NCBI RefSeq assembly: GCF_026262505.1
Contig: NC_067204.1
Coordinates: 20,491,300 to 20,555,299 of the forward strand
DNA from: Trichomonas vaginalis G3
Taxonomy: Eukaryota > Parabasalia > Trichomonadida > Trichomonadidae
Length of the DNA: 64,000 nt
Direction of reading: 5' to 3'
How positions within the stretch are numbered: the stretch's first letter is position 1; each line of letters opens with the position of its first letter. The translations under genes and the position numbers were made by a program. The notes under the pieces are model-generated. The model saw nothing but the letters and a program-made list of their open reading frames with translations. It was not told the origin of the DNA and ran no database searches. Positions 27,056-57,350 of the stretch are shown in pieces.

Positions 27056-28107
27056 AAGGGTTTCGTTTTGCGAAAAAAACGTACAATACGCAATTTCGCT
27101 AAAAAACATTTAGCTAGCAATTTCGACCTTTGACTCCACTCAAGACGTCACTTTTTTAATTTTGCGGTATCATATTTTTGGAAAATCTTTATGAATATTA
27201 TATAAAAAGTCTCTTTAATATCTATATTTCATATTTTTATCGATTTTTAAAGTTTTTGCGAAAAGTATTCAATTATTTTTGCTATTTGGTCGGGTAAATG
27301 TCAGATTTGCGACATTTTCTGATATGATATTCAGATTCTACGTTGATAATAATGCTTATAGAACCCTCTTGCTATTGTGTCAAAATTGCGAAACCGATAG
27401 CAAAAATATCTCGCAATATCAAAATTGAGATATTGAGTGAATTATGCATTATAGAGATTAAAAATCTGATTTGTGAAAACATCTCATCAGTTTCTAGCTA
27501 ATTCAAAAATCTTTACTATCTTATTCGATTAAAATGAAAAGGGAATAGTTTCATTATGCTTTAAATGACAGCCTTATAATATAATCATAGTTTTCGCTCA
27601 ATATGCAGCATTTTTTTTTCGAAATCTATGGTCAATATCCTAAATACTGATTGCTTTGCATTCATATCTCTTACATTTTCTATACCCACATCACTATTCA
27701 TTGCTATTCCTATCTTTTTCATTTTTGTTTGTTTCTCATAATTTCTCAAAAAACATGATAACTTGATATTTGTAAATATCATACTTTATAACGTAAATAA
27801 GAACTTGACCTATTAAGAAAAGCAGTAATGAAAAGAAAATCTGAAATTCATAAAAATTACAAGTTTCTGATGACAATTAGCTTAATTAAACCAGGTACAA
27901 GATTATATAATTGTATTTTCTATCCAATTATCCATATAATATCTTATCCAGAAAAAATAACTTGATCAATACCAAATGATTTTTTAACTAGTAAATAAAG
28001 TATTTTCTTTACACACACATTGTATATCATAGTTTTTTTTTGGTTTCGCAAAACATCCAAAAACAAATATGCTATAAAAGTGACAATTTTAGCAAAACGA
28101 AACCCTT
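27056..28107 (+). mobile_element. element E1, 1,052-bp non-autonomous MULE-like transposon
   Basis: Terminal inverted repeat AAGGGTTTCGTTTTGC at both ends, flanked by perfect 9-bp duplications, the size made by Mutator-like (MULE) transposases. The interior is AT-rich with no transposase; a 65-codon minus-strand frame is not supported. Two further copies, E2 and E3, lie in the window. It must have been moved in trans. Confidence 0.85.
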
Positions 28108-28267
28108 ACTCGTTCTTTCCAATAATATGTAAAAAGGATTTTATTTCTTGGAATCAACATGACTGGTATGGCTTCTTGATGAGACTTTCATGTTATATTA
28201 TTTTACTATTGAAAAGAAGACACTATCATGAAGTGAGGAACAAATTTTCAAAAATATACGATATTAG

Positions 28268-30617
28268 TATAACGTTTATGGAAAATAAGCCTTATTTACC
28301 CGGCCAATCTTCCCCTCAATTTGGTCTTTCAAAATTGGCAGATGCCAGTCACTTTTTACTATGGTAATGATACATAATCATTAATATAGATTCAGGATAG
28401 TATGTTATATCATATTTAATCATTATTAAGCAACTTCTATGATATTTTTTTTCCATTCATATAAAAAGTTTTATGAAGTTAATATTAAATAAACTATTTA
28501 TTTTCCCTTTTCTTTACAATTTTTATACAAAAATTAGTAATAAAACAATTATATTTATAATATGATGAAACTAGTTTATTTTCATTGGTATCAGCTCGAG
28601 ATCATCTGACTTGGAGGTACTGAATATTAGTTTCTTATTGTAAAGCCATATCTGCGTTGTGATTTGAATTTTTTGCTTATAATTCAAAAGAAATGCAATC
28701 TGAGTGAATTTTATCGGCTATTTAAAACCCTTGTAAGAATTAGCATTCGACTCTTTCTGTGAGCAAGCACTGAGAAGCTGACTGTGAAGCCCGTGTCCTA
28801 CCTAAAAAATGAAAACGATAGGGGTAAAAAGGGAAAAATGTGAAAGAAAATAAAACCCTCAAAAATATGTTATATATACAATAACAAATCGATATCCAAG
28901 ATAAATTTTAAGGATGTCAATTTGGAAGAAAAGTGAGAAAATTCCTAAAATGCTAAAAATGAATTTTCCAAACATATTTTTTTATCTCATTTTTTTGATT
29001 TTGAAAAAAATTTGGAGAGAAGAACTCTTCGTTTTTGAATTTTATCACGATGGTTTTAAAGTATATTAGACACATGTATTGGTATTACTATTTTTGTATA
29101 TTTTGAGAGAAAATCCCTAAAAAGTGAGAAAATCTAAGACGGTTTGAGAAAATATATAAACTATTGAAAATTTGAATTAAACTTCTAATTTGGAAAAAAG
29201 AAATTTGGAAAGAAGGAAAATTCAAAAATCGAGATTTAGACTCAGCATCAAATGGAGAACAAAATGTTTCTTCATATGAAGGAAAAAAATTTTCTTGTGA
29301 AGAAATAGAGTTTTTAAAATTTTATTGTATGTAATGAAATAAACAAATATTAAAATTATTTTTTGATAACAAGAAAATTCCAATAGAAAATATTTGAGAG
29401 AAAGAAAAAAAGAAAATTGAAAAATATTACTCTCCTTTATATTTCATGAGATTTTAAATTTATTCTCATAAAATTGACAATTTTATACCTTTAGATGAAA
29501 ATTAATGATTTTGGTTGAAATAGAAATTATTATTTGCTTACAGCTATCAAATAGATTTTTGCTATTTTGATTAAAATTTGTTAATCAAATTAATAAATTT
29601 TTTCTAAATATCTTAAATATCTGGATCACTCACATATACAATGAATTAAACGATAAAAATAATACAAACTCAACTAAGTTTCCTGTCTTTCAACTAAAAA
29701 AAATTATGCAAATTAAATTAAATTGTTTATTCAAATATAAAACAAAGATGAAGTAATTACCGTTATCATAAACTTTATGAATAACTCTGTAATTGGTTCA
29801 GATTTTCGTAAAAATATTTTTATTAATATCGATAAGAATACGTTTACCTACTATCACAACATATCGATAAACAAGAGTAGAGTGATTTTTATCATCGAAA
29901 CTTTTTAAAAGCTGTAAGCTGGAAGGAAAAATCTTGTTTTTTCTGAGTTAGTTGTAGAACTATTGATGCACGAGTTATCATTGTGATGTAGAAGGATGTC
30001 AATGTACTGACTGAAGGATATGAAGTGAATTGAATTTCATTGCATTTCAATTTGATCAAAATTTGTTGAAATGATATGAATGTGTCAACATCTGTATCAC
30101 TCTCTTTCACTCCTTCCCTATTCTTTCGAGAACGAAGCTAGCTCAGCTTTCGCTGAGCGAATTGACACTTTTGATGCCCTAAACGTACATGCTCTCAAAT
30201 TTATCGAAAAAATTATACCACCTAAACTAGTATATTCTTATTTTAAATATGATATTATCCTTAGAATCCACACTAGAATATATTTAAATCAACTTTTAAA
30301 GAAGTTCGAATCCTGCGCGTCTCACTTTTTAAATTTTCGAAAAGGAAAATTATATTCTCCTAAAATGGAAACAATTTTCCGAATTGACATCCTTATAAAT
30401 TTTTTTAATTTCATGAGCGCTATATGGAATTATAATCCCTCAACTAGAAAAATAAATACTATATGCTATAACAAATCTATATCCAGCATAAAAAATATTA
30501 CTCCATTACTATCATTCTGCATGGCAAAGGCAAATGACGGCAAAACCGCGTCAGAAACTCTCAAAATTGAGGGGATGATTGGCCTGGTAAATAAGCTTAT
30601 TTTCCCTAAACGTTATA
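28268..30617. repeat. imperfect inverted repeat within X1
   Basis: 28268-28322 (TATAACGTTTATGGAAAATA and onward through CGGCCAATCTTCCCCTCAA) is matched in reverse complement at 30564-30617 with a few mismatches. It may mark an old, degenerate transposon inside X. X2 holds the same pair. Confidence 0.55.
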
Positions 30618-30885
30618 TTATAAAAAAATTTATAAAGTTATTTATTTGCTGCAAAGAAAAAATTTTATTTCTCAAGGTGGGATCCAATTTTACTTGGATA
30701 TATTAAAATTCTTAAGACTTTTCATAAGTTATAGATCGAACACTTGATTTGCTCATGGAATGTGAAAATTTATTTTGAAATAGAGTTTGCAAATTAAGCT
30801 GTAAATGGATTCTATCTTGATAAATATATTTCATATATTTCATATATATCTTCATTAATGTGTGCGTCTTTCTTGTTTTAATAAA

Positions 30886-30935
30886 GTTGTTTACAACTTT
30901 TTCCGTTGTTTACAACTTTTTCCGTTGTTTACAAC
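30886..30935. repeat. triplicated 19-bp unit with GTTGTTTACAAC
   Basis: GTTGTTTACAAC, itself a short palindrome with a TTTA centre, occurs at 30886, 30905 and 30924. X2 has the same array at 40837-40886. Confidence 0.75.
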
Positions 30936-31323
30936 ATATTTCGCTAACTGTATCTTTAATTGAATAAAATTTCGGTATGATAATCGACACAATCAAATTT
31001 AGAATCTCGAAGCACAACAAGCTGCTGCTCTAGACTGTTGATCAATATATCTTTAAGTAGGAATAGATAAAAGGATTAAAAAAAAATGAAAAAACCGTTG
31101 TCATTTCTCTAAAAATTATAATCCAAGCACAATTTTAGTTAATCTAAAATTTTTGAGTATTGAAAAATGAGTATATTCGAATTGAATGCAACACTTTATC
31201 GTTTGAATAACCGTTGGATTTTTATCTGATATTATTATATACTAAATATTTTATGCATAATTTCAAAATTTAGCTAATCGAGCAAATAAATTTTGAGAAC
31301 AACTTAATCGCAATTCTCTTGTT

Positions 31324-31332
31324 ATAATATCT
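31324..31332 (+). repeat. left flank of E2 (ATAATATCT)
   Basis: The nine bases before E2 match the duplication around E3 (41274-41282, 42333-42341), not the right flank of E2. Confidence 0.9.
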
Positions 31333-32235
31333 AAGGGTTTCGTTTTGCGAAAAAAACGTACAATACGCAATTTCGCTAAAAAACATTTAGCTAGCAATTT
31401 CGACCTTTGACTCCACTCAAGACGTCACTTTTTTAATTTTGCGGTATCATATTTTTGGAAAATCTTTATGAATATTATATAAAAAGTCTCTTTAATATCT
31501 ATATTTCATATTTTTATCGATTTTTAAAGTTTTTGCGAAAAGTATTCAATTATTTTTGCTATTTGGTCGGGTAAATGTCAGATTTGCGACATTTTCTGAT
31601 ATGATATTCAGATTCTACGTTGATAATAATGCTTATAGAACCCTCTTGCTATTGTGTCAAAATTGCGAAACCGATAGCAAAAATATCTCGCAATATCAAA
31701 ATTGAGATATTGAGTGAATTATGCATTATAGAGATTAAAAATCTGATTTGTGAAAACATCTCATCAGTTTCTAGCTAATTCAAAAATCTTTACTATCTTA
31801 TTCGATTAAAATGAAAAGGGAATAGTTTCATTATGCTTTAAATGACAGCCTTATAATATAATCATAGTTTTCGCTCAATATGCAGCATTTTTTTTTCGAA
31901 ATCTATGGTCAATATCCTAAATACTGATTGCTTTGCATTCATATCTCTTACATTTTCTATACCCACATCACTATTCATTGCTATTCCTATCTTTTTCATT
32001 TTTGTTTGTTTCTCATAATTTCTCAAAAAACATGATAACTTGATATTTGTAAATATCATACTTTATAACGTAAATAAGAACTTGACCTATTAAGAAAAGC
32101 AGTAATGAAAAGAAAATCTGAAATTCATAAAAATTACAAGTTTCTGATGACAATTAGCTTAATTAAACCAGGTACAAGATTATATAATTGTATTTTCTAT
32201 CCAATTATCCATATAATATCTTATCCAGAAAAAAT

Positions 32236-32244
32236 AACTTGATC
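32236..32244 (+). repeat. left target duplication of the MULE (AACTTGATC)
   Basis: Repeated exactly at 37908-37916. E1 and E3 contain this sequence once, at the equivalent position, as the empty site. Confidence 0.95.
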
Positions 32245-34793: not shown

Positions 34794-36884
34794 ATGGGAA
34801 AATCATATATATTTAATCAAAAAAGAGCAAACTTTACAGACGAAAATAAAATATTTATCAGGGAACAATCTGATAAATACCAAAAATCAACATCGAGACA
34901 TGAAAAAACGAATATAATCAAACAAGTTCTTCAATATTTTAATATTAAATACGCCGAAAATGAATCTAAAGCTGTCAGAAGATATTTTAGTTATATTGCA
35001 GTTAAAAATATTCCCGCAGTTACTGGAAAATATCCTGATACAATTGTTCGCAAAGATATGCTTTATTCGCATGATCATACAAATATTATTAATTCAAATA
35101 ATATTGAACGTTACTACCGTTGCATCGATCATTCTTGTCAAGCACGTTATTTAGTTAAAATTGAGAACAGTTCAGTTTCCGAAGATTTACAAAAGGAACA
35201 TATACCCGAATGCAGACAATTTAAAAAGTTACAAAATGAAAAAAATGATCTTCATAAATCAATGACTCTGACAGAAATATACAATAAGGCAATGGCAAAA
35301 TTTTCTGAAGACAACGGCACTTTTCAGCAGATTAAAAAATTTATGACAGAACTTGCTGTTGGTACTGATGAAAACCCATTAATTAAAGATTCATTGGTCA
35401 GGGAAGTTTATAATAAGTCCAGAAAATTTTCTGTTGGAGAAAAAATTACAGACGATGAAATTGCTAATTTTTGTTTAATAAATGGCGAGCAGTTTTTCAT
35501 TGGCCATGATTTTCAAGCAAATTGTGAGACGATGTTTTTTGGTTTTGAGAAGGCAATTCAATTTGCAAAAGAAGCCACAGATTTATTTTGCGATGGAACT
35601 TTTAAAATTACACCAAAACATTTTCAAAAAGGACAGATGCTAACAATTATGATTTGTGAACCTTCAACAAATCAATATCTACCACTTTTATTTATATTCA
35701 TGAAAAACCGCACATTTGAATCTTATAAGAAGGCATTTGAATATATTTTTACTGTCAAGGGTATTCAATTTTCAAAGCTAATTCAAATTCATTGTGATTT
35801 TGAAAAGGGAATGATAGAGGCACTTCAACAAATTTTCCCTAAAGTCCGTATAATTGGATGCCTATTTCATTTCAAACAAGCTTTACACAGGAAACTTGTA
35901 GCACTTTATACAAAAAATTTCAATACTTTACAAAATTCTTTATTTAAGCTATATTCTATTACTCCATTCATGTCTCATGAAGAATTTGTACTTACAATGC
36001 ATATAATTAATCAAAATAAAGTTGATTCGATCAAAGATTATATTGATTATTTCAACAAAGTTTGGTTGCCGCACTACAATTTAATATCTCAATATAATAA
36101 TGCAACTGCAATATTCACTAATGATTGCCTCGAGAGTATGCATTCAGAATTTTCTTCGTTAAAACATCCAAACATTTATGAAGCTATTAAGAAGATATCT
36201 CAAATCCAATTAGATAAATATAACGCCATCAAAAATAACCAGAAGATCGAGCGCCATATAAAAACCGTTATCACTGATAGCTACAAAAATTATATTCTTG
36301 ACTGCTTTCAAAAAGAACTTGAGAAAACAATTTTTTCTATCAAACAATACAACGTAAGTGATCTTTCTTTGGCTCAGAACGAGATTTCTCCATATGGTTC
36401 CATAGAATCGAGTTCATTGTTCGAAAATATTCCAGTTCATGATGCAGATATACTCAAATCGATCGATCTAACAGATAAAGATACAATGATCACTAAGTTT
36501 ATTAATGAAAAAAGAGAAAAAATTATGGCATTATTTAATGAAACATTAAATCATCCAGATTTTAATTCATCCACTCCAATTCAAACTAATTTTGAGCAAG
36601 CCGATACAAATCAAGGTTCAGATGCTCCAATTCGCTCCGAAAATTCAAATATTGCAGACTCTACAGATTTAGAACCAGAAAATCAAAACCATCCTTCTAC
36701 AAATCAAATGTCTAGTAATCTAGAACATAAGCTGGACCTTCTTGATCATATTGAAAAACAATTATCGAAAATGCGCTCGTTATTGGGAATTCTTCCTACT
36801 ACAAATGCTATTGTTGGGCCGTCAAAACAAGTTTCAGTTAATAGCAAGCAAAATTCTGAAAAAAATAAAAAAAATCTTCCATAA
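34794..36884 (+). CDS. MULE transposase
   Basis: A protein of 696 residues. An N-terminal Cys/His zinc-finger-like segment lies near 109-140 (YYRCIDHSCQARYL, then KEHIPEC). The MULE catalytic domain follows: Asp267 in DLFCDGTFKI, Asp335 in IQIHCDFEKGM, CxxH in GCLFHFKQ (356-359), and candidate Glu447 in NDCLESMHSEF. It would cut and join the element ends, making 9-bp duplications as seen here. The C-terminus is polar. A run of A at about 36860-36870 appears to hold a one-base shift: in another phase the frame continues to a TGA at 37043-37045, adding about 60 Lys/Arg/Ser-rich residues (PPKRKAPISERIL, KRSKSKRS) that look like a nuclear-localisation tail. So this copy may be slightly truncated. 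Confidence 0.93.
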   Translation: MGKSYIFNQKRANFTDENKIFIREQSDKYQKSTSRHEKTNIIKQVLQYFNIKYAENESKAVRRYFSYIAVKNIPAVTGKYPDTIVRKDMLYSHDHTNIINSNNIERYYRCIDHSCQARYLVKIENSSVSEDLQKEHIPECRQFKKLQNEKNDLHKSMTLTEIYNKAMAKFSEDNGTFQQIKKFMTELAVGTDENPLIKDSLVREVYNKSRKFSVGEKITDDEIANFCLINGEQFFIGHDFQANCETMFFGFEKAIQFAKEATDLFCDGTFKITPKHFQKGQMLTIMICEPSTNQYLPLLFIFMKNRTFESYKKAFEYIFTVKGIQFSKLIQIHCDFEKGMIEALQQIFPKVRIIGCLFHFKQALHRKLVALYTKNFNTLQNSLFKLYSITPFMSHEEFVLTMHIINQNKVDSIKDYIDYFNKVWLPHYNLISQYNNATAIFTNDCLESMHSEFSSLKHPNIYEAIKKISQIQLDKYNAIKNNQKIERHIKTVITDSYKNYILDCFQKELEKTIFSIKQYNVSDLSLAQNEISPYGSIESSSLFENIPVHDADILKSIDLTDKDTMITKFINEKREKIMALFNETLNHPDFNSSTPIQTNFEQADTNQGSDAPIRSENSNIADSTDLEPENQNHPSTNQMSSNLEHKLDLLDHIEKQLSKMRSLLGILPTTNAIVGPSKQVSVNSKQNSEKNKKNLP

Positions 36885-37907: not shown

Positions 37908-37916
37908 AACTTGATC
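37908..37916 (+). repeat. right target duplication of the MULE (AACTTGATC)
   Basis: Exact copy of 32236-32244. Confidence 0.95.
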
Positions 37917-38056
37917 AATACCAAATGATTTTTTAACTAGTAAATAAAGTATTTTCTTTACACACACATTGTATATCATAGTTTTTTTTTGGTTTCGCAA
38001 AACATCCAAAAACAAATATGCTATAAAAGTGACAATTTTAGCAAAACGAAACCCTT

Positions 38057-41000
38057 ACTCGTTCTTTCCAATAATATGTAAAAAGGATTTTATTTCTTGG
38101 AATCAACATGACTGGTATGGCTTCTTGATGAGACTTTCATGTTATATTATTTTACTATTGAAAAGAAGACACTATCATGAAGTGAGGAACAAATTTTCAA
38201 AAATATACGATATTAGTATAACGTTTATGGAAAATAAGCCTTATTTACCCGGCCAATCTTCCCCTCAATTTGGTCTTTCAAAATTGGCAGATGCCAGTCA
38301 CTTTTTACTATGGTAATGATACATAATCATTAATATAGATTCAGGATAGTATGTTATATCATATTTAATCATTATTAAGCAACTTCTATGATATTTTTTT
38401 TCCATTCATATAAAAAAGTTTTATGAAGTTAATATTAAATAAACTATTTATTTTCCCTTTTCTTTACAATTTTTATACAAAAATTAGTAATAAAACAATT
38501 ATATTTATAATATGATGAAACTAGTTTATTTTCATTGGTATCAGCTCGAGATCATCTGACTTGGAGGTACTGAATATTAGTTTCTTATTGTAAAGCCATA
38601 TCTGCGTTGTGATTTGAATTTTTTGCTTATAATTCAAAAGAAATGCAATCTGAGTGAATTTTATCGGCTATTTAAAACCCTTGTAAGAATTAGCATTCGA
38701 CTCTTTCTGTGAGCAAGCACTGAGAAGCTGACTGTGAAGCCCGTGTCCTACCTAAAAAATGAAAACGATAGGGGTAAAAAGGGAAAAATGTGAAAGAAAA
38801 TAAAACCCTCAAAAATATGTTATATATACAATAACAAATCGATATCCAAGATAAATTTTAAGGATGTCAATTTGGAAGAAAAGTGAGAAAATTCCTAAAA
38901 TGCTAAAAATGAATTTTCCAAACATATTTTTTTATCTCATTTTTTTGATTTTGAAAAAAATTTGGAGAGAAGAACTCTTCGTTTTTGAATTTTATCACGA
39001 TGGTTTTAAAGTATATTAGACACATGTATTGGTATTACTATTTTTGTATATTTTGAGAGAAAATCCCTAAAAAGTGAGAAAATCTAAGACGGTTTGAGAA
39101 AATATATAAACTATTGAAAATTTGAATTAAACTTCTAATTTGGAAAAAAGAAATTTGGAAAGAAGAAAATTCAAAAATCGAGATTTAGACTCAGCATCAA
39201 ATGGAGAACAAAATGTTTCTTCATATGAAGGAAAAAAATTTTCTTGTGAAGAAATAGAGTTTTTAAAATTTTATTGTATGTAATGAAATAAACAAATATT
39301 AAAATTATTTTTTGATAACAAGAAAATTCCCAATAGAAAATATTTGAGAGAAAGAAAAAAAGAAAATTGAAAAATATTACTCTCCTTTATATTTCATGAG
39401 ATTTTAAATTTATTCTCATAAAATTGACAATTTTATACCTTTAGATGAAAATTAATGATTTTGGTTGAAATAGAAATTATTATTTGCTTACAGCTATCAA
39501 ATAGATTTTTGCTATTTTGATTAAAATTTGTTAATCAAATTAATAAATTTTTTCTAAATATCTTAAATATCTGGATCACTCACATATACAATGAATTAAA
39601 CGATAAAAATAATACAAACTCAACTAAGTTTCCTGTCTTTCAACTAAAAAAAATTATGCAAATTAAATTAAATTGTTTATTCAAATATAAAACAAAGATG
39701 AAGTAATTACCGTTATCATAAACTTTATGAATAACTCTGTAATTGGTTCAGATTTTCGTAAAAATATTTTTATTAATATCGATAAGAATACGTTTACCTA
39801 CTATCACAACATATCGATAAACAAGAGTAGAGTGATTTTTATCATCGAAACTTTTTAAAAGCTGTAAGCTGGAAGGAAAAATCTTGTTTTTTCTGAGTTA
39901 GTTGTAGAACTATTGATGCACGAGTTATCATTGTGATGTAGAAGGATGTCAATGTACTGACTGAAGGATATGAAGTGAATTGAATTTCATTGCATTTCAA
40001 TTTGATCAAAATTTGTTGAAATGATATGAATGTGTCAACATCTGTATCACTCTCTTTCACTCCTTCCCTATTCTTTCGAGAACGAAGCTAGCTCAGCTTT
40101 CGCTGAGCGAATTGACACTTTTGATGCCCTAAACGTACATGCTCTCAAATTTATCGAAAAAAATTATACCACCTAAACTAGTATATTCTTATTTTAAATA
40201 TGATATTATCCTTAGAATCCACACTAGAATATATTTAAATCAACTTTTAAAGAAGTTCGAATCCTGCGCGTCTCACTTTTTAAATTTTCGAAAAGGAAAA
40301 TTATATTCTCCTAAAATGGAAACAATTTTCCGAATTGACATCCTTATAAATTTTTTTAATTTCATGAGCGCTATATGGAATTATAATCCCTCAACTAGAA
40401 AAATAAATACTATATGCTATAACAAATCTATATCCAGCATAAAAAATATTACTCCATTACTATCATTCTGCATGGCAAAGGCAAATGACGGCAAAACCGC
40501 GTCAGAAACTCTCAAAATTGAGGGGATGATTGGCCTGGTAAATAAGCTTATTTTCCCTAAACGTTATATTATAAAAAAATTTATAAAGTTATTTATTTGC
40601 TGCAAAGAAAAAATTTTATTTCTCAAGGTGGGATCCAATTTTACTTGGATATATTAAAATTCTTAAGACTTTTCATAAGTTATAGATCGAACACTTGATT
40701 TGCTCATGGAATGTGAAAATTTATTATGAAATAGAGTTTGCAAATTAAGCTTTAAATGGATTCTATCTTGATAAATATATTTCATATATTTCATATATAT
40801 CTTCATTAATGTGTGCGTCTTTCTTGTTTTAATAAAGTTGTTTACAACTTTTTCCGTTGTTTACAACTTTTTCCGTTGTTTACAACATATTTCGCTAACT
40901 GTATCTTTAATTGAATAAAATTTCGGTATGATAATCGACACAATCAAATTTAGAATCTCGAAGCACAACAAGCTGCTGCTCTAGACTGTTGATCAATATA

Positions 41001-41282
41001 TCTTTAAGTAGGAATAGATAAAAGGATTAAAAAAAAATGAAAAAACCGTTGTCATTTCTCTAAAAATTATAATCCAAGCACAATTTTAGTTAATCTAAAA
41101 TTTTTGAGTATTGAAAAATGAGTATATTCGAATTGAATGCAACACTTTATCGTTTGAATAACCGTTGGATTTTTATCTGATATTATTATATACTAAATAT
41201 TTTATGCATAATTTCAAAATTTAGCTAATCGAGCAAATAAATTTTGAGAACAACTTAATCGCAATTCTCTTTTATAATATCT
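38057..41282 (+). repeat. segment X2, second copy of the 3.2-kb unit
   Basis: Begins ACTCGTTCT and ends ATAATATCT like X1. It differs from X1 by a handful of one-base changes, for example an extra A in the run near 38415, one G fewer near 39165, one extra C near 39330 and an extra A near 40160. No convincing gene. Confidence 0.9.
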
Positions 41283-42332
41283 AAGGGTTTCGTTTTGCGA
41301 AAAAAACGTACAATACGCAATTTCGCTAAAAAACATTTAGCTAGCAATTTCGACCTTTGACTCCACTCAAGACGTCACTTTTTTAATTTTGCGGTATCAT
41401 ATTTTTGGAAAATCTTTATGAATATTATATAAAAAGTCTCTTTAATATCTATATTTCATATTTTTATCGATTTTTAAAGTTTTTGCGAAAAGTATTCAAT
41501 TATTTTTGCTATTTGGTCGGGTAAATGTCAGATTTGCGACATTTTCTGATATGATATTCAGATTCTACGTTGATAATAATGCTTATAGAACCCTCTTGCT
41601 ATTGTGTCAAAATTGCGAAACCGATAGCAAAAATATCTCGCAATATCAAAATTGAGATATTGAGTGAATTATGCATTATAGAGATTAAAAATCTGATTTG
41701 TGAAAACATCTCATCAGTTTCTAGCTAATTCAAAAATCTTTACTATCTTATTCGATTAAATGAAAAAGGGAATAGTTCATTATGCTTTAAATGACAGCTT
41801 ATATATAATCATAGTTTTCGCTCAATATGCAGCATTTTTTTTTTCGAAATCTATGGTCAATGTCCTAAATACTGATTGCTTTGCATTCATATCTCTTACA
41901 TTTTCTATACCCGCATCACTATTCATTGCTATTCCTATCTTTTTCATTTTTGTTTGTTTCTCATAATTTCTCAAAAAACATGATAACTTGATATTTGTAA
42001 ATATCATACTTTATAACGTAAATAAGAACTTGACCTATTAAGAAAAGCAGTAATGAAAAGAAAATCTGAAATTCATAAAAATTACAAGTTTCTGATGACA
42101 ATTAGCTTAATTAAACCAGGTACAAGATTATATAATTGTATTTTCTATCCAATTATCCATATAATATCTTATCCAGAAAAAATAACTTGATCAATACCAA
42201 ATGATTTTTTAACTAGTAAATAAAGTATTTTCTTTACACACACATTGTATATCATAGTTTTTTTTTGGTTTCGCAAAACATCCAAAAACAAATATGCTAT
42301 AAAAGTGACAATTTTAGCAAAACGAAACCCTT
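41283..42332 (+). mobile_element. element E3, 1,050-bp copy with perfect 9-bp duplications
   Basis: Same termini as E1. Flanked by ATAATATCT on both sides (41274-41282 and 42333-42341). It differs from E1 and E2 at several sites after about position 41755 (indels near 41760 and 41800, substitutions near 41863 and 41913). Its right end lies 115 bp before the first cathepsin-like gene. Confidence 0.88.
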
Positions 42333-42447: not shown

Positions 42448-43800
42448 ATGTTTTTGCTAACTTGCTTTGCTCGATCTTTCAAGGATTCAGATCCTCTTAT
42501 AACACAAGATATGGTTGATGCAATTAACAACGATCCTAATGCACCATTCAAGGCAACACTTTATCCAAAGTTTGCAAAAATGACTGTTGGTGATGCTAAG
42601 CGTTTCTTGTCACCAGTTCGCCCACCACCACAAAACCACGGCTCAGCTGTTCCAGTTGGTGCTAACGAAGAATTCTTCAACTGGGTTGATAACAACTACA
42701 TTACAGGTCTCACAAATGTTGTCGCCTTTAATGGATGGAATAATGCTTCGAACCAAGATGCAGATCAGAGTCATATTTCAGGAGGCAGATCTATCCGTCC
42801 TAATACCAGCATTGTCAAATTCCCAGTTTTTGATGTCACAAAGTTGTGCAGCTCATGGGCACCAGCAGTCACATCTGCAATGACAATCTCTGTTTCACGT
42901 TGGGCCGGTCAATTCGTCAACTTCTCTCTTCAGTACGTTCTTGATTGTGACATGCTCGGCGATTCATGCATTGAACGTACTCCACTCAATGCATACCAAC
43001 TCTTCTGGACATACCATCCTCCGGACTTCGATAGCTGGGACAGACCAGGCGATGAACACTCAGAAAGAAAAGAATCTATGCAAGCACCACGCTCTGATTT
43101 CAAGAGAGCCAACTGTGCTAATAACAGATGCTATCCAGGCTTGACAGGCTGCAAGCGTCACTGGGCACTCACAGGAAGCTGCAACCCAGGTGATCCAGAA
43201 ACAGGTTGCCCAATCTACTTCCTTTATAACTGGCGCTGGATTAAATCTCATCTTTGGGAAGTTGGTGCAGTTACTTCTTCAATCACTGTTTACCAAACTC
43301 TTTTCTCTTATCAGGATGGTGTTTACTCAAGCTATTATAAATCAGCTGGAGGAGATGGTTTTGATAATCAGGGAATTCTTGGTATGCTTGATGTTACAAT
43401 TATTGGATGGGGCCAAAAAGAGTTGAATTTATCCACTAACAATGAACTTTACACTAAGGAACTCCAAAGATATTGGTGGGTTATTCCACACTTTGGAGTT
43501 AAATTTGGTGTGAAATATGATCCATGTGATGTCAATTCACACAAATGCGTAGATAGGGCACTTGTTGCAGAAAGTGGAAAAACTAAAGTTACAACGAAAG
43601 ACGATCAAATCAGAATTGATACATTAAATATTGCTGGTTATGGTGGTGGTGTACAATCTGATTCAGTTAAAGGTTTCATAAAGTTCAACCGTAGATTTGA
43701 TGACTGCAACATTGAATCACATGCAGTTGGTGCTGTTCCATACAACTTTGTTCCACTTCCACACAGAACACCATCTCCAACAGATGATGAGACAACATAA
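42448..43800 (+). CDS. cathepsin-B-like papain-family (C1) protein lacking catalytic residues, copy 1
   Basis: A protein of 450 residues. It begins with a short hydrophobic stretch (MFLLTCFA) that may act as a signal. The papain fold is recognisable by FDVTKLCSSWAPAVT (residues 129-143, in place of QGxCGSCWAF), DCDM, a Cys-rich middle, GAVTSSITVYQTLFSYQDGVYSS (cathepsin-B pattern), LDVTIIGWG and RYWWVIPHFG. The nucleophile before Trp137 is Ser136, the usual His is Asp315, and the Asn of the NSWG motif is Pro347. All three catalytic positions are therefore replaced, and I predict a non-proteolytic binding protein or surface or lysosomal pseudoenzyme. The stop TAAA also forms the polyadenylation signal. 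The paralogue is at 45587. Confidence 0.85.
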   Translation: MFLLTCFARSFKDSDPLITQDMVDAINNDPNAPFKATLYPKFAKMTVGDAKRFLSPVRPPPQNHGSAVPVGANEEFFNWVDNNYITGLTNVVAFNGWNNASNQDADQSHISGGRSIRPNTSIVKFPVFDVTKLCSSWAPAVTSAMTISVSRWAGQFVNFSLQYVLDCDMLGDSCIERTPLNAYQLFWTYHPPDFDSWDRPGDEHSERKESMQAPRSDFKRANCANNRCYPGLTGCKRHWALTGSCNPGDPETGCPIYFLYNWRWIKSHLWEVGAVTSSITVYQTLFSYQDGVYSSYYKSAGGDGFDNQGILGMLDVTIIGWGQKELNLSTNNELYTKELQRYWWVIPHFGVKFGVKYDPCDVNSHKCVDRALVAESGKTKVTTKDDQIRIDTLNIAGYGGGVQSDSVKGFIKFNRRFDDCNIESHAVGAVPYNFVPLPHRTPSPTDDETT

Positions 43801-44716
43801 ATGAATAAACAATAATTTTGATGCGTTTAATTTTGATCAAATCACAAAAGTCGTAAATATTTAAATTTGTAAATTTGTTGTAAAATGTATTATTTGCAAG
43901 AGTATGTTTGGCGTTGCAATTCTTGCTGCTTATATAATTCCACAAGTATTGTAAACTTTTGCAAGATCAATATTTAAATTTCATTCAATATATAATTATA
44001 ATATATAATTTCAAATTTACATCTCATCAGCTATTATCCATTTTACAAGAGCATCAGTAGCATAAAATTAATAAAAACTCAAAACAATTTTAGCGAAAAT
44101 TCATTTAATAACTAAAATATTCACAGAGAATCAGAGTATTTTAATTTTCTCTATCTATTTACTAATCTTATGCTTGCATGTGGGCAAATGGTGGGAAAAG
44201 ATATGGGAGTAAGATAATCGAAAACTATCTAAAAATATTAAATATCATATTTAAACTAAGTAAAATCGATGTTTATGATTATTAGGTTATCGAAACCACC
44301 TGAGGCCCCAAATTATTTTTGATCAAATATATATTTTCATACTGCAGATCAATAAATCATATGATATGCTTGTTATTATTTTATATGATTATGCAATATC
44401 AAGTCATAGTATTATATCAGACCTTCAAACAATCTATGATTTGAACTTCTTTTGTCAAAAAATTATTTAAATGTGCACTTATGCCCCTATAACATGATTT
44501 TCAATTCTTCATAGGTGAGGCTTATGTCTCAAATATAGGTGTAGTAGACACTATCAATTCCAATAACGTGGGTTGGACCATTACATCAAATTTTCTGTCT
44601 TTACACTTTAATTCAATTTTGAATTGTTTGAAAAATTAAATAGTTGTAAACTAATATTTGAAGCTCCTCATGATTTAATTTTTCGTCTTTACAATAATTG
44701 ATTTCTGATATTATAT
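43801..44716. other. 0.9-kb intergenic stretch
   Basis: AT-rich, with no gene or RNA recognised. Confidence 0.45.
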
Positions 44717-45350
44717 TGTAATAAACAGAAATTCATCAAAAGTGACAGCTCTCAATTTTTTGACATTTGTAAATTCTAAATTGAATGAGAAAAATGAAAT
44801 AATACTAAGCATAATACAATATTCTAGATTTAATTATAATTAGGAAAAAGTTAGTTTTGAGAGTACTTTTCATAGGCATATAGAATGAAATCTTCTGAAA
44901 AATAATATCACATAAACTCATATTATTTTCTAACATATAACTATTTTATATAAAAATCAAATTCAATGATCTTAAAAGCGAAGGATAAACCTCAAAATTT
45001 ACGAATATAATGAGTGGGAATATTTCATATGGTTTTTATGATAGATAAGCATTATATTCCCACTCATTATATTCGTAAATTTTGAGGTTTATCCTTCGCT
45101 TTTAAGATCATTGAATTTGATTTTTATATAAAATAGTTATATAGTAGAAAATAATATGAGTTTATGTGATATTATTTTTCAGAAGATTTTGTGTTCTTCT
45201 TCAAAATTTTATTTTTTTATTAAAAAGAATCTTTACAAAATATACATTTACTTTAATTAATATTTAAAAACGTGCTCTATCAAAAGTTCCAAAAATTCAA
45301 TATTTTAGCTTTTCTGAGGTGTCACTTTTGATGAATTTCTGTTTACAACA
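44717..45350. mobile_element. foldback element copy 1 (634 bp)
   Basis: Ends are inverted: TAAACAGAAATTCATCAAAA near 44722 and its reverse complement near 45343. Inner arms of about 150 bp (about 44890-45035 and 45052-45195) are almost perfect inverted copies around a short centre. The same ends and arms occur at 53163-54403. No coding capacity. The target duplication is not clear. It lies between the two cathepsin-like genes. Confidence 0.8.
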
Positions 45351-45586
45351 ATATTTTCCTATATATCATTTTAAAAACAGTTTTAAATGCAGGCTTCTTG
45401 AAACAGATATTGACAGAATTTTATAGATTTTTCAAAATTGAATAACTAGAAGGTTATAATAAGTCGAATGAAAATTAGCATAAATACATCCAAAAGTTAA
45501 TAGAGGTTAAACTCTTTTGCAAGCAGATTTTTGTATAGTAATTATTTAAAAAAAAAGTTTACATTTAATTCTATTAATTTCGATTC

Positions 45587-46927
45587 ATGCTTTTATTATT
45601 GTGCTTTGTTCGATCTTTCAAGGATTCAGATCCTCTTATAACACAAGATATGGTTGATGCAATTAACAACGATCCTAATGCACCATTCAAGGCAACACTT
45701 TATCCAAAGTTTGCAAAAATGACTGTTGGTGATGCTAAGCGTTTCTTGTCACCAGTTCGCCCACCACCACAAAACCACGGCTCAGCTGTTCCAGTTGGTG
45801 CTAACGAAGAATTCTTCAACTGGGTTGATAACAACTACATTACAGGTCTCACAAATGTTGTCGCCTTTAATGGATGGAATAATGCTTCGAACCAAGATGC
45901 AGATCAGAGTCATATTTCAGGAGGCAGATCTATCCGTCCTAATACCAGCATTGTCAAATTCCCAGTTTTTGATGTCACAAAGTTGTGCAGCTCATGGGCA
46001 CCAGCAGTCACATCTGCAATGACAATCTCTGTTTCACGTTGGGCCGGTCAATTCGTCAACTTCTCTCTTCAGTACGTTCTTGATTGTGACATGCTCGGCG
46101 ATTCATGCATTGAACGTACTCCACTCAATGCATACCAACTCTTCTGGACATACCATCCTCCGGACTTCGATAGCTGGGACAGACCAGGCGATGAACACTC
46201 AGAAAGAAAAGAATCTATGCAAGCACCACGCTCTGATTTCAAGAGAGCCAACTGTGCTAATAACAGATGCTATCCAGGCTTGACAGGCTGCAAGCGTCAC
46301 TGGGCACTCACAGGAAGCTGCAACCCAGGTGATCCAGAAACAGGTTGTCCAATCTACTTCCTTTATAACTGGCGCTGGATTAAATCTCATCTTTGGGAAG
46401 TTGGTGCAGTTACTTCTTCAATCACTGTGTACAAAACTCTTTTCTCTTATCAGGATGGTGTTTACTCAAGCTATTATAAATCAACTGGAGCAGATGGTTT
46501 TGATAATCAGGGAATTCTTGGTATGCTTGATGTTACAATTATTGGTTGGGGCCAATCACAGCTGAATTTATCAACTGACCATGAAAAATACACTAAGAAA
46601 CTCGAGAGATATTGGTGGGTTATTCCACACTTTGGACCAGGTTTTGGTATTAAATATGGGCCATGCAATGAAAGTGGCCACAATTGCAAGACTAAAGCAT
46701 ATGGAAGTGATGGACAATTTACCAATACTGCCCAAATCGACATCGGCAAATTGACTGTTGTTGGTTTAGGTGGAGGTGAGCAATCTGATTCTATTAAAGG
46801 TTTCATGAAGTTCAACCGTAGATTTGATGATTGCAACATTGAATCACATGCAGTTGGCGCCGTTCCATATAACTTTGTTCCACTCCCACACAGGACGCCA
46901 TCTCCAACAGATGATGAGACAAAATAA
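45587..46927 (+). CDS. cathepsin-B-like papain-family protein lacking catalytic residues, copy 2
   Basis: A protein of 446 residues with the same domain plan as copy 1, including CSSW, LDVTIIGWG and YWWVIPHFG, so the Cys, His and Asn positions are again replaced. From residue 9 to about 250 the DNA is identical to copy 1. The region 300-410 has diverged (for example SQLNLSTDHEKYTKKLE), and the last 50 residues are again almost identical. The leader and first eight residues differ (MLLLLCFV). The stop TAAA again doubles as polyadenylation signal. A TCATGCTT overlapping the ATG is a weak Inr candidate. Confidence 0.85.
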   Translation: MLLLLCFVRSFKDSDPLITQDMVDAINNDPNAPFKATLYPKFAKMTVGDAKRFLSPVRPPPQNHGSAVPVGANEEFFNWVDNNYITGLTNVVAFNGWNNASNQDADQSHISGGRSIRPNTSIVKFPVFDVTKLCSSWAPAVTSAMTISVSRWAGQFVNFSLQYVLDCDMLGDSCIERTPLNAYQLFWTYHPPDFDSWDRPGDEHSERKESMQAPRSDFKRANCANNRCYPGLTGCKRHWALTGSCNPGDPETGCPIYFLYNWRWIKSHLWEVGAVTSSITVYKTLFSYQDGVYSSYYKSTGADGFDNQGILGMLDVTIIGWGQSQLNLSTDHEKYTKKLERYWWVIPHFGPGFGIKYGPCNESGHNCKTKAYGSDGQFTNTAQIDIGKLTVVGLGGGEQSDSIKGFMKFNRRFDDCNIESHAVGAVPYNFVPLPHRTPSPTDDETK

Positions 46928-47217
46928 ATTTTTATTTGATATTTTTTTTACTAATGTTTGATATTTCTTATTTGAACGAAGAGAGTTTCTATCATAAGAA
47001 TTCTGAATGAATGTTACCTCGAACAAGATAATATTTCTGAAGATCAGATAAATCTATCATATTTTTTGTTATTCTACAATATCTATGTATATATTTCACA
47101 GACAAGTATGTAAGTTATCTTGTAAGTTGTGCATTTAAATAGCAACGTAATTTAGGCTGAGCCCACATTTGGAAAACTTTTTTTTATTTCAAAAAAATTC
47201 TAAACAGACGTTAATAA

Positions 47218-52902: not shown

Positions 52903-52911
52903 ACATCGTTC
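52903..52911 (+). repeat. left target duplication ACATCGTTC
   Basis: Exactly repeated at 57342-57350. Confidence 0.93.
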
Positions 52912-53162
52912 GGGTCGTTATCGTCTTTTTGTAATTGAATCGTTATCGTTATCGATTTTGTAATTTAATCGTTATCGTCTTTTTCTAAACGTGCATTTTC
53001 TTCATATTGGGATAATGAACATAACTTGTTCTGAGCTTCCAATGCACAAATCGTTTTTATTCTAAATGGATTCATTCCTACAAGTTTGGCAGAAATCAGT
53101 GAATTTTATAAAATAATGATAAATATGAAAAGAAAGAGAATGGCATAAAATGATGATTAATA

Positions 53163-54403
53163 TGTAATAAACAGAAATTCATCAAAAGTGACAGCTCTCA
53201 ATTTTTTGACATTTGTAAATTCTAAATTGAATGAGAAAAATGAAATAATACTAAGCATAATACAATATTCTAGATTTAATTATAATTAGGAAAAAGTTAG
53301 TTTTGAGAGTACTTTTCATAGGCATATAGAATGAAATCTTCTGAAAAATAATATCACATAAACTCATATTATTTTCTAATATATAACTATTTTCTATAAA
53401 AATCAAATTCAATGATCTTAAAAGCGAAGGATAAACCTCAAAATTTACGAATATAATGAGTGGGAATATAATGCTTATCTATCATAAAACCATATGAAAT
53501 ATCAATTTTTGCTTTACGCCTAATTTTTGACGACAATTAGCAAAAAATGTTAAATGTTAACACTCAGTCCATTTGAATATGAAAAATAAAATTGACTTTG
53601 ATTAAATGTTTTTATTTATCATGCAATTCTTCTTGCGACCAAAGATTTGAATAAAACTTCAAAAAATAAGATAGCTTAAAAAATAATATACGGTAGTGTT
53701 TACTAATAGATGAATAGTATATAAATTCTATTAAAATGGATTTGATCCAAAAAAATATATAAAATTTGATCATAAATAAAATCGTTTTAAATTACTTCTT
53801 CATTTAAATATAACAATTATTTTTGGTTTTATATTTTTTTGGATAAAATCCATTTTAATAGAATTTATATACTATTCATCTATTAGTAAACACTACCGTA
53901 TATTATTTTTTAAGCTATCTTATTTTTGAAGTTTTATTCAAATCTTTGGTCGCAAGAAGAATTGCATGATAAATAAAACATTTAATCAAAGTCAATTTTA
54001 TTTTTCATATTCAAATGGACTGAGTGTTAACATTTAACATTTTTTGCTAATTGTCGTCAAAAATTAGGCGTAAAGCAAAAATTGATATTTCATATGGTTT
54101 TATGATAGATAAGCATTATATTCCCACTCATTATATTCGTAAATTTTGAGGTTTATCCTTCGCTTTTAAGATCATGAATTTGATTTTTATAGAAAATAGT
54201 TATATATTAGAAAATAATATGAGTTTATGTGATATTATTTTTCAGAAGATTTTGTGTTCTTCTTCAAAATTTTATTTTTTTATTAAAAGAACCAAAATAC
54301 ATACTTTAATTAATATATTAAAAACTGCTCTATCAAAAGTTCCAAAAATTCAATATTTTAGCTTTTCTGAGGTGTCACTTTTGATGAATTTCTGTTTACA
54401 ACA
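53163..54403. mobile_element. foldback element copy 2, near-perfect palindrome of 1.24 kb
   Basis: Same termini as 44717-45350. The inner arms, about 53335-53788 and 53795-54250, are almost perfect inverted copies of about 450 bp around a short AT-rich centre. Copy 1 lacks the inner part. A 105-codon frame at 54174-54491 runs through the right arm and is not a gene. Confidence 0.85.
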
Positions 54404-54646
54404 ATCTTCATGTAGTCAAATAAAACGGAAATGCGAAAACAAACTTTTATTCGATATTACAAAAAAAATTATATTGATCGCTAAGATTTAAATACGTATA
54501 GTTTAAGTATATGTGGTATCATTATGTGCATATTCTGATATATATACTTGAATGATATCACAAAAATAACAGAAATACAAATCTTGAATTAAATTATATC
54601 ATAGAATACAATTTTAATAAACGAAAAATCAAACCCTCTCGCAATA

Positions 54647-54959
54647 CAGCCATTTTTAAGAGTAGTTCTTTCAAGATCTTCGAAGATTTGGAAGATCTTG
54701 GAAGAACTGCCTCTAAATGGCTGTAGCTTCGGTATTGTTACTATCAAGTAGAAAGTTACGGTAATTACTGCCATTTTAAGAGTAGTTCTTTCAAGATCTT
54801 CCAAATCTTCGAAGATCTTGAAAGAACTGCTCTCTAAATGGCAGTAGTTTCGATGTTAACATGATAATATGAGTGAAATTTTCTTATTTGAAGTCGGTTA
54901 AAGAGCAGTTCTTTCAAGTTCCTTCAAATCAGGAAGGGTCTTGACAGAACTGTCCTCTT
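54647..54959. repeat. hairpin array, group A (three hairpins)
   Basis: Inverted repeats at 54647-54723, 54767-54845 and 54901-54959. The first two have ends CAGCC/GGCTG and ACTGCC/GGCAGT and a shared arm AGTTCTTTCAAGATCTTC; the third is a diverged relative (CAGTTCTTTCAAG). Each would fold into a stem of 25-35 bp. Starts are 120 and 134 bp apart. Confidence 0.85.
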
Positions 54960-55154
54960 ATTGATTGGAATACCGGTATTTTACGTTGGTAAATGCTTGA
55001 TTTGAATTGGGGGCTGAGTGTTGGAGAAAAAAAAACATTAAAAAAATAAAAAGTGCCAAAATAAAAGAATTCAATCTACATATATATAGTATTTCTAGGC
55101 CTGTCCAAACTTTTAAAAAAGCTTACCACGTGGAAGGAAGAGACCAAAAAAATC

Positions 55155-55183
55155 GTGCCTCGGCGGCTTCGCCGCCTCGGCAC
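55155..55183. repeat. GC-rich hairpin
   Basis: GTGCC, TC, GGCGGC, loop TTC, GCCGCC, TC, GGCAC: a strong stem in otherwise very AT-rich DNA, just before a 74-base pure pyrimidine tract (55211-55284). Confidence 0.8.
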
Positions 55184-55293
55184 TAAAAACAGCATATCGT
55201 ATTTAATATGTCCTTTTTTCTTTTTCTCTTTTCCTCTTTCTCTCTCCTTCTTTTCTTTCTTCTCTTTTTCCTTCTTTTCTTCTCACTTTCTTT

Positions 55294-55946
55294 TTGGAGC
55301 TGCTTTACTTTGAAATCTCTCATCAATTGATGAGAGAAATAATAGTAAAGTAGCTTCAATGTAAATACGTACATTGATTGGGTTATGGTTAGCGGTAATG
55401 TCTGTATGTAGTTCGATTGGAGCTGCCTCATCTGAGATCTCTCATCAAATGAAGAGAGTTCTCAGAGTGAGGCAGCTCCAATGTATATGTGCGTATTGAT
55501 TGGGTTGCTGTAAGAAGCAGTGCTTGTGTGTAGTTCGATTGGAACTGCTTTACTCTGAGATCTGTCATCAATCGATGAGAGTTCTCAGAGTAAAACTGTT
55601 CCAATGTGTAATCTTGTGCTAGCTTGTCTGTTCGATTGGAACTGCTTTACTCTGAGTTCTCTCATCAATTGATGAGAGAAATAAGAGCAAAGTAGCTCCA
55701 ATGTATATATGTGTATTGATTCGGTTTGGTTAGCTGGACTGTCTGTGAGTAGTTCGATTGGAACTGCCTCATTCTGAGATCTCTCATCAATAGATGAGAG
55801 AAATAAGAGTAAGGCAGTTCCAATGTATATAATCGTATTGATTTGGTTGCTTTAAGTTGGAGTGTTTGTGCATAGTTCGGTTAGAACTGCTTTGCTCTGA
55901 GAACTCTCATCGATTGATGAGAGTTCTCAGAGCAAATCAGCTCCAA
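55294..55946. repeat. hairpin array, group H (six hairpins)
   Basis: Inverted repeats at 55294-55359, 55417-55481, 55539-55604, 55636-55701, 55758-55823 and 55881-55946. Starts are 123, 122, 97, 122 and 123 bp apart. Each has a left arm like TTGGAACTGCTTTACTCTGA and a right arm near its complement, with a small loop around ATCAATTGAT and a stem of about 30 bp. Spacers share TAGTTCGATTGG on the left and AATGTATAT on the right. Where the left arm reads TGCCTCA (second and fifth hairpins) the right arm changes to TGAGGCA or TAAGGCA. Confidence 0.9.
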
Positions 55947-56552
55947 TGTGTAAATTTGTATTAGTTCGGGTACCACAACTCAATTTGTGGTCACTTCATC
56001 TTACCACGTGGTAAGTTTTTATAAAACTCTTTATTTACCATTGATTTCTGATTTAATATCAATATCTTGAATAATCAAGCATATCTATCGCTTTAAATTT
56101 TATTCTCTAATTCCAAAAAAAATTCAAAAATCAAAAAATGAAAAAAATATTTAGAATTTTTTCCGTCAAAAATAAAAAATGTTCCCACTGAGTGGTTTCC
56201 ATGGAAAGTTACCACTGGGTCCCACAGGGATTGGCCTAAGTATTTCTTAATAGAATGTGAAATATAGTAAAATTAACTATATTCAAAATGGAAAAAAATC
56301 CAAAAAATTTTTGAAAAAAAGAATTTCATGATAAAAAGCGTAAATTTTGCATCAGAAAATTAAATTCAGGTATTTTTGAATAGAAAGAGTCCTAAAATTA
56401 GTTAAAAATCATTTTTTATTCAAAAGAAACGCTATTTTTAAGGAATTGAAAAGAATTTTATTTAATAATATTTTATTTATAGAATTTGCATATATCATAT
56501 GCATAGACATATTGAATTGTAAACATGAGAACACTAATTACATTAACTTGTC

Positions 56553-56880
56553 GTTCAAATTATTGCATCGAGAAAAAAAGTGCTATAAATTTACTCAATT
56601 AGTTTACAAACGTAAATATTTGGCATAAACTTTACGTTTGTAAACTAATTTGGTAAACTCGTAGTTCAAATTATTGCATCGAGAAAAAAAAGTGCTATAA
56701 ATTTACTCAATTAGTTTACAAACGTAAATATTTGGCATAAACTTTACGTTTGTAAACTAATTTGGTAAACTCGTAGTTCAAATTATTGCATCGAGAAAAA
56801 AAGTGCTATAAATTTACTCAATTAGTTTACAAACGTAAATATTTGACATAAACTTTACGTTTGTAAACCAATTTGATTAA
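56553..56880. repeat. three tandem 111-112-bp repeats, each with a hairpin
   Basis: GTTCAAATTATTGCATCGAG recurs at 56553, 56664 and 56776. Each unit contains TTAGTTTACAAACGTAAA facing its inverse (56599-56648, 56711-56760, 56822-56871). Confidence 0.88.
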
Positions 56881-57350
56881 ATTTAGTAAATTTTAGTTCG
56901 AATGCAAGTTTTCTCGGTAAATCATTTTTAAGACCTCAAATGAGATGTATGATCATATGAGTCACATATGATTTAATCCGAATATGTGTGAGAATTGAGT
57001 TTAAAACGAAGTTTATTTTTTGGACTATATTTCGCCATTTTAAAATGTGTAATAATGATATAATTCGCATGAAATTGAAAAATATTGACTGGATGTGTAA
57101 TGGTTTTATAATTGCAATGTTGATTTGATCGAATTTAAATGAATATATAACGCGATGAAATTTCGAATTGCTCAAATGTCTGTAATTCATATATGGTGCA
57201 CATATTAATATTACATTTCGTTGATATTTACCACATAAACCTTTAAATATTAAGTCATTTTAAAGTTATATGCGATTTAGTTCCAAAATGCACGTTTAGA
57301 AAAAGACGATAACAATTAAATTACAAAATCGATAACGACCCACATCGTTC

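Follow-up and report, generated by a model that had tools for sequence, protein, structure and literature searches.

Among described systems, the closest is a ~4.3-kb repeat that surrounds TvMULE1 and was left unidentified in 2009 (Lopes et al. 2009, PMC2725143). Its printed 36-bp TIR is, letter for letter, the left end of a 6.3-kb element dealt with below (L043), and its 8- and 9-bp TSDs are as here. Its authors regarded TvMULE1 as nested in the repeat, whereas here the whole of L043 is bounded by one exact 9-bp TSD, and the words palindrome and hairpin are absent from the text of that paper (PMC2725143). That repeat can now be given its ends, its TSDs and a candidate for the autonomous partner. 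Muta1, a Mutator-like element of Aedes aegypti, is reported to have 8-9-bp TSDs, non-autonomous derivatives with varied interiors and complex TIRs with repeats (PMC5225508), all shared with the present case, but its tandem repeats are short and lie in the TIRs, whereas those considered here are long tandem palindromes in the interior of an outer element and of an element, X, nested in it. The T. vaginalis non-autonomous elements of the hAT or P superfamily, such as hAT.3N1 or P.1N1 (named in Table 1 of PMC7845603), resemble X and its relative A in their 8-bp TSDs; X and A also show short end repeats and subterminal motifs. The likeness is one of superfamily features, and no transposase was linked to X or A. 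Small RNAs of this species are reported to measure ~34 nt, to favour a 5′ U and to be transposon-directed, with 99 of the 142 hAT.3N1 copies expressed and 141 having sRNA (PMC7845603). A different type of precedent is evolution by template switching in inverted repeats, for which arm homogenisation, spacer inversion and multi-base changes in one arm have been reported (PMC8604942; PMC8794818). All three have counterparts here, though the reported cases concern yeast genes and RNA genes and the present one tandem transposon arrays. No description of these hairpin arrays was found among the open-licence papers listed by the searches.

The window, i.e. the whole 64-kb stretch of Trichomonas vaginalis G3 DNA that was analysed, has nine quasi-palindromes at 54645-55947, three of a group G and six of a group H, mostly ~122 bp apart. 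This is as an earlier note on this DNA described. Start-to-start spacings of the H hairpins are 123, 122, 97, 122 and 123. Not on that note's list were the transposon ends and a further array of three hairpins, K. Stems are ~31-34 bp. All eight quasi-palindromes of score >=16 in the window fall inside the outer element, and in one full copy of that element (L030) the 11 that score >=12 are the six H, the three K and two of the three G hairpins, with none reaching that score in 30 dinucleotide shuffles of the same scan. The families G, H and K have no sequence in common, and all three sit in two elements. No tRNA was found in the window.

The reading that we favour, and consider probable with appreciable room for doubt, is that two non-autonomous DNA transposons, one nested in the other, carry the hairpins as tandem arrays in their interior; transposition would have spread these arrays, and their arms would be matched anew chiefly when the DNA is replicated. 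The earlier note had thought of a polycistronic small-RNA precursor or of protein-bound cruciforms. Neither gains support; the arrays make up the inner part of two mobile elements, each present in many copies. Its simpler alternative, a satellite that expanded by duplication while its arms exchanged sequence, fares much better and largely explains the array; what has to be added is the two nested transposons and a few traces, at the DNA level, of copying from arm to arm.

Features at the hairpin arrays, with positions numbered from the first nucleotide of the window
Feature	Position	Strand	Remarks
Outer non-autonomous Mutator-like element	52912..57341	+	TIR GGGTCGTTATCG; 9-bp TSD ACATCGTTC at 52903-52911 and 57342-57350
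Hairpin G1	54645..54725	+	loop GAAGATTTG; palindrome scan
Hairpin G2	54766..54846	+	loop CAAATCTTC, exact reverse complement of G1 loop; palindrome scan
Hairpin G3, weaker	54897..54957	+	score <12 in palindrome scan
Nested element X	55096..56238	+	ends TAGGCC...GGCCTA; 8-bp TSD AGTATTTC at 55088-55095 and 56239-56246
GC-rich hairpin GTGCC-TC-GGCGGC-TTC-GCCGCC-TC-GGCAC	55155..55183	+	next to it ATTTAATATGTCC, then a pyrimidine tract
Hairpin H1	55293..55360	+	
Hairpin H2	55416..55482	+	1 base shorter than in most copies
Hairpin H3	55538..55605	+	palindrome scan
Hairpin H4	55635..55702	+	palindrome scan
Hairpin H5	55757..55824	+	palindrome scan
Hairpin H6	55880..55947	+	palindrome scan
Three K hairpins	56590..56879	+	~68 nt, period 112; 56590-56657, 56702-56769, from ~56814; palindrome scan

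A nested element within a Mutator-like element

A genome-wide search (180.85 Mb in 86 contigs) yielded dispersed copies, with at least 144 matches overall. Besides the window, at least 15 places on contigs C1, C3, C4, C5 and C6 align over 600 or more of the 691 query bases with an identity of 88-100%, at least nine of them at 100%. All-against-all comparison of 10-kb pieces around 20 places revealed a sharp-edged repeat, the outer element, which carries the G and K hairpins and is without a transposase. Its termini start GGGTCGTTATCGATTTTGTAATTTAATCG, and an exact 9-bp TSD is also present in 10 of 12 other pieces that have both ends (three of the 12 belong to the wider TIR family), none being found in the remaining two (L027, L039). 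With up to three mismatches allowed, the TIR pattern occurs at 404 genome sites and its reversed control at 0. The TIR is long, to judge from an ~86-bp inverted match of 98.8% between the end repeats of one copy (L041) and the other end of L030. No ORF of at least 120 aa lies inside the window copy, the longest stop-to-stop frame among those listed being 113 aa.

The relative L043 has the same kind of TIR, with ends that match at 95-97% over 81-86 bp. Its 565-aa frame has a SWIM match over the Pfam cut-off (E 1.1e-6) and a MULE match under it (E 3.2e-4; 21.5 bits against a cut-off of 27.6). Since L043, which has a like TIR and is flanked by an exact 9-bp TSD, codes for a protein of SWIM/MULE type, the outer element is assigned as Mutator-like and, from its ends, its TSD, this relative and the lack of any ORF of 120 aa or more, as non-autonomous; L043 may be its autonomous form. 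Also inside the outer element, at 53334-54252, is a ~920-bp self-inverted repeat (95% alike) that is absent from the other copies compared; inverted repeats related to it are at 44706-45352.

All six H hairpins are within X, which is nested in the outer element and, in the window, has ~460 bp missing at 55971. Genome-wide there are 22 X left ends. One X copy (L037) is outside the outer element and has its own 8-bp TSD, TTTATTTC, with an additional base on its left side, and another piece (L033) begins at the X left end with different flanking DNA; G hairpins are absent from both. Five of the 20 pieces (L025, L026, L036, L038, L039) contain the relative A, of ~1.9 kb, within the right end of X and with an 8-bp TSD, GATTGGCC, so that TSDs of this length are seen for X at two sites and for A at one. 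Common to X and A is a layout of GC hairpin, ATTTAATATGTCC, pyrimidine tract, 68-nt hairpins and a second GC hairpin. The GC-hairpin pattern occurs at 130 genome sites (control, 0), with no mismatch among the 100 sites listed. A 51-nt hairpin of A gave no BLAST match to group G.

The ends of X and A look related, and the two are therefore treated as subfamilies, likely of the hAT superfamily, with P as the alternative. Ends of hAT elements have the form YARNG; element A starts TAGGG and element X TAGGC; P elements likewise make 8-bp TSDs. Four places in the genome have a hAT dimerisation domain. Short motifs are repeated near the ends (5610-5830 of L030; the right part of A in L038) and differ by subfamily, GTGGTAA in X, CGGTAA and ACGG in A; judged from sequence, they might be putative transposase binding sites. 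In L039, A occupies the target site that it has in L038 but points the other way, which would come from a further insertion at a hot spot or from inversion between its ends.

Unit number varies. The 20 pieces with any G1/G2-type units have two to five of them at steps of ~121 bp, and hybrid, i.e. recombinant, units of this type are common. In L041 the H units were lost via deletion between TTACCAC repeats, and an exact 9-bp TSD is present; the deletion may postdate insertion and so does not show the array to be dispensable. Each array thus consists of a palindrome and its spacer repeated in tandem, in which the number of units changes and parts of them are swapped, and transposition has dispersed the arrays.

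Pairing and mutation of the arms

Strong stem covariation is usually taken as proof of functional RNA. Here it is found in mobile elements that bear traces of copying between arms as well, and the many near-identical copies are material on which the two causes could be distinguished. The covariation of the H arms is real. Among 16 diverged H hairpins, own-arm pairing is 80.0%, compared with 72.1% across hairpins (0 of 100000 permutations), and for the six units it is 85.3% compared with 79.7% (2 of 720 permutations). Both sides are changed in 14 of 32 pairs of the 16 hairpins, as against 9.2 +/- 1.5 in shuffles that ignore relatedness (0 of 500 reaching it) and 3-7 in slid controls, and the co-varying stems of the earlier note thus stand; further pair types are not in excess (27 versus 27.0). 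The 16 were picked from 42 distinct 68-mers, one per unit type, and units of the window are represented by their L030 counterparts. Matches that scored below 33 bits or failed to span model positions 15-78 had been dropped beforehand, and a partial second hairpin in L047 and the fragments in L049 are omitted. They align gap-free, and it is this alignment alone that speaks for equal length, since the 68-mers were cut at a fixed length; several recent copies carry indels. The particular co-change cited in the earlier note, of TTTACT to CCTCA with the opposite arm following, is exact in H2 (CCTCA with TGAGG) and only partial in H5, where CCTCA faces TAAGG with one mismatch. In the window, H6 has a stem mismatch that is absent from most other copies.

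These pairing figures disfavour, and make rather improbable, a plain neutral satellite in which no process or selection keeps the arms matched, even though recent copies do behave in that manner. Isolated stem changes among near-identical copies break a pair in nine of 10 cases, make one in the other and are compensated in none, so that on a recent timescale the arms mutate independently, one of the findings that the earlier note had named as telling against a role for the folded form. (The comparison covers 17 of the 25 variant X-type 68-mers, the other eight having indels or a shifted start, and the nine-of-10 count excludes the hybrid units of L038 and L039, with two breaking, four pair-making and two neutral changes.) Recent diversity is also too small for a stem/spacer difference to show, with few variants (3 of 384 stem and 4 of 248 spacer sites in 12 copies, p = 0.44), as a neutral satellite would have it.

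For the favoured reading, that of re-matching during replication, the process in mind is DNA polymerase template switching between arms, from which, we infer, most of the matching arises: a switch would correct one arm from the other and could invert the loop. In G1 and G2 the same arms enclose loops that are exact reverse complements of each other, five of the nine letters differing. The H5 loop is TATT instead of AATA in one of 18 copies, and that of H6 AATC instead of GATT in two of 18, while AATT and ACTC are each seen in a single copy. Among 35 K units, one (in L041) shows two neighbouring changes in one arm that both restore pairing, from 11 to 13 of 13. Also in favour of this process, G.U and A.C mismatches are similar in number (23 and 32, p = 0.28). 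Such mirror-image loops and the two-base correction of one arm in K are what template switching between inverted repeats reportedly causes (PMC8604942; PMC8794818). Clean cases are few, however, and this weighs against the account as a whole. For G1 and G2, the loops may alternatively derive, by two 9-bp deletions, from a longer perfect palindrome that is present in L036 and contains both; AATC in H6 is reachable by two substitutions via the AATT that is present in L035; and the A-family loop has a single orientation in all 20 copies paired by hand among the matches listed. In chosen pairs of X units, stems are 81% alike and spacers 62%, with a shuffled baseline of 50%, and this would be expected from selection as well as from template switching. 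For chosen pairs of orthologous A/B/C units the corresponding stem and spacer values are 94 and 88, 91 and 90, and 90 and 78%. The stem may be under weak selection in the source copies, which would perhaps add to the matching of the arms.

Putative roles of the arrays

Under another explanation, the module of X and A would be a structured RNA carried by transposons, with hairpins that feed, or act as decoys for, the small-RNA pathway of the parasite. Consistent with this putative role, covariation exceeds that of shuffles, the module is common to two subfamilies, the GC-hairpin pattern is constant over the sites listed, and on both strands folding is far below that of shuffled sequence (20 shuffles per strand; z -15.7 and -17.8), though the last is expected of any palindrome array. 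The reported transposon-directed small RNAs are, moreover, of the size of each ~34-nt arm, and not of the 20-26 nt that the earlier note had led one to expect (PMC7845603). This agreement in length is a coincidence worth a mapping experiment. Against a role as RNA, recent one-arm changes stay uncompensated, the strand asymmetry of wobble pairs is absent (G.U 23, A.C 32, p = 0.28) and no Rfam match reaches the gathering score in the window. Further, one 25-nt H6 arm, with up to three mismatches, has 99 genome sites, all in places known to hold an array, and hence no match outside them. An RNA role is unsupported, and the structured-RNA account is held to be unlikely. Also unlikely is an extended version, in which 8-bp-TSD transposons with a conserved non-coding module between two GC-rich hairpins would have ~34-nt arms making dsRNA that putatively feeds or distracts a host 34-nt PIWI-like pathway, with template switching keeping the arms matched.

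About as unlikely as the structured RNA is that the palindromes are putative DNA sites for a dimeric protein, or extruded cruciforms, kept for that purpose. The most conserved part of the hairpin is the central CTCTCATC-N4-GATGAGAG, with 291 genome sites, and perfect or near-perfect palindromes exist, as such sites would have it. Yet the G, H and K families, in two elements, are without a common sequence, and a dimer site has no need of co-varying ~34-nt arms. Viral contigs gave no match to the GC hairpin and five to the core palindrome, none of which extends into the rest of the hairpin.

Broken copies of A and neighbouring repeats

An A-family GC hairpin can lie as much as ~30 kb from the nearest following right end of A, and a giant A element was therefore considered. 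At the one junction examined, in a broken copy at C1:3103900-3104700 (L056), A stops at its position 1512 and unrelated sequence follows, and a second such case has no A sequence in it. A piece ~6 kb further along the span of that junction has a long open frame resembling, we assume, a Maverick structural protein, and what breaks A there is presumably a Maverick. The span is read as another element inserted in A, and several other A copies may be split by insertion likewise.

Elsewhere in the window, a 4.29-kb direct repeat (27959-32244 and 37908-42192, 99.65% identity) flanks a region with a MULE transposase ORF at 34794-36884. Beyond it are adjacent ORFs at 42463-43802 and 45602-46929 which, without a Pfam match for either, are 93% alike in DNA and constitute a tandem gene pair.
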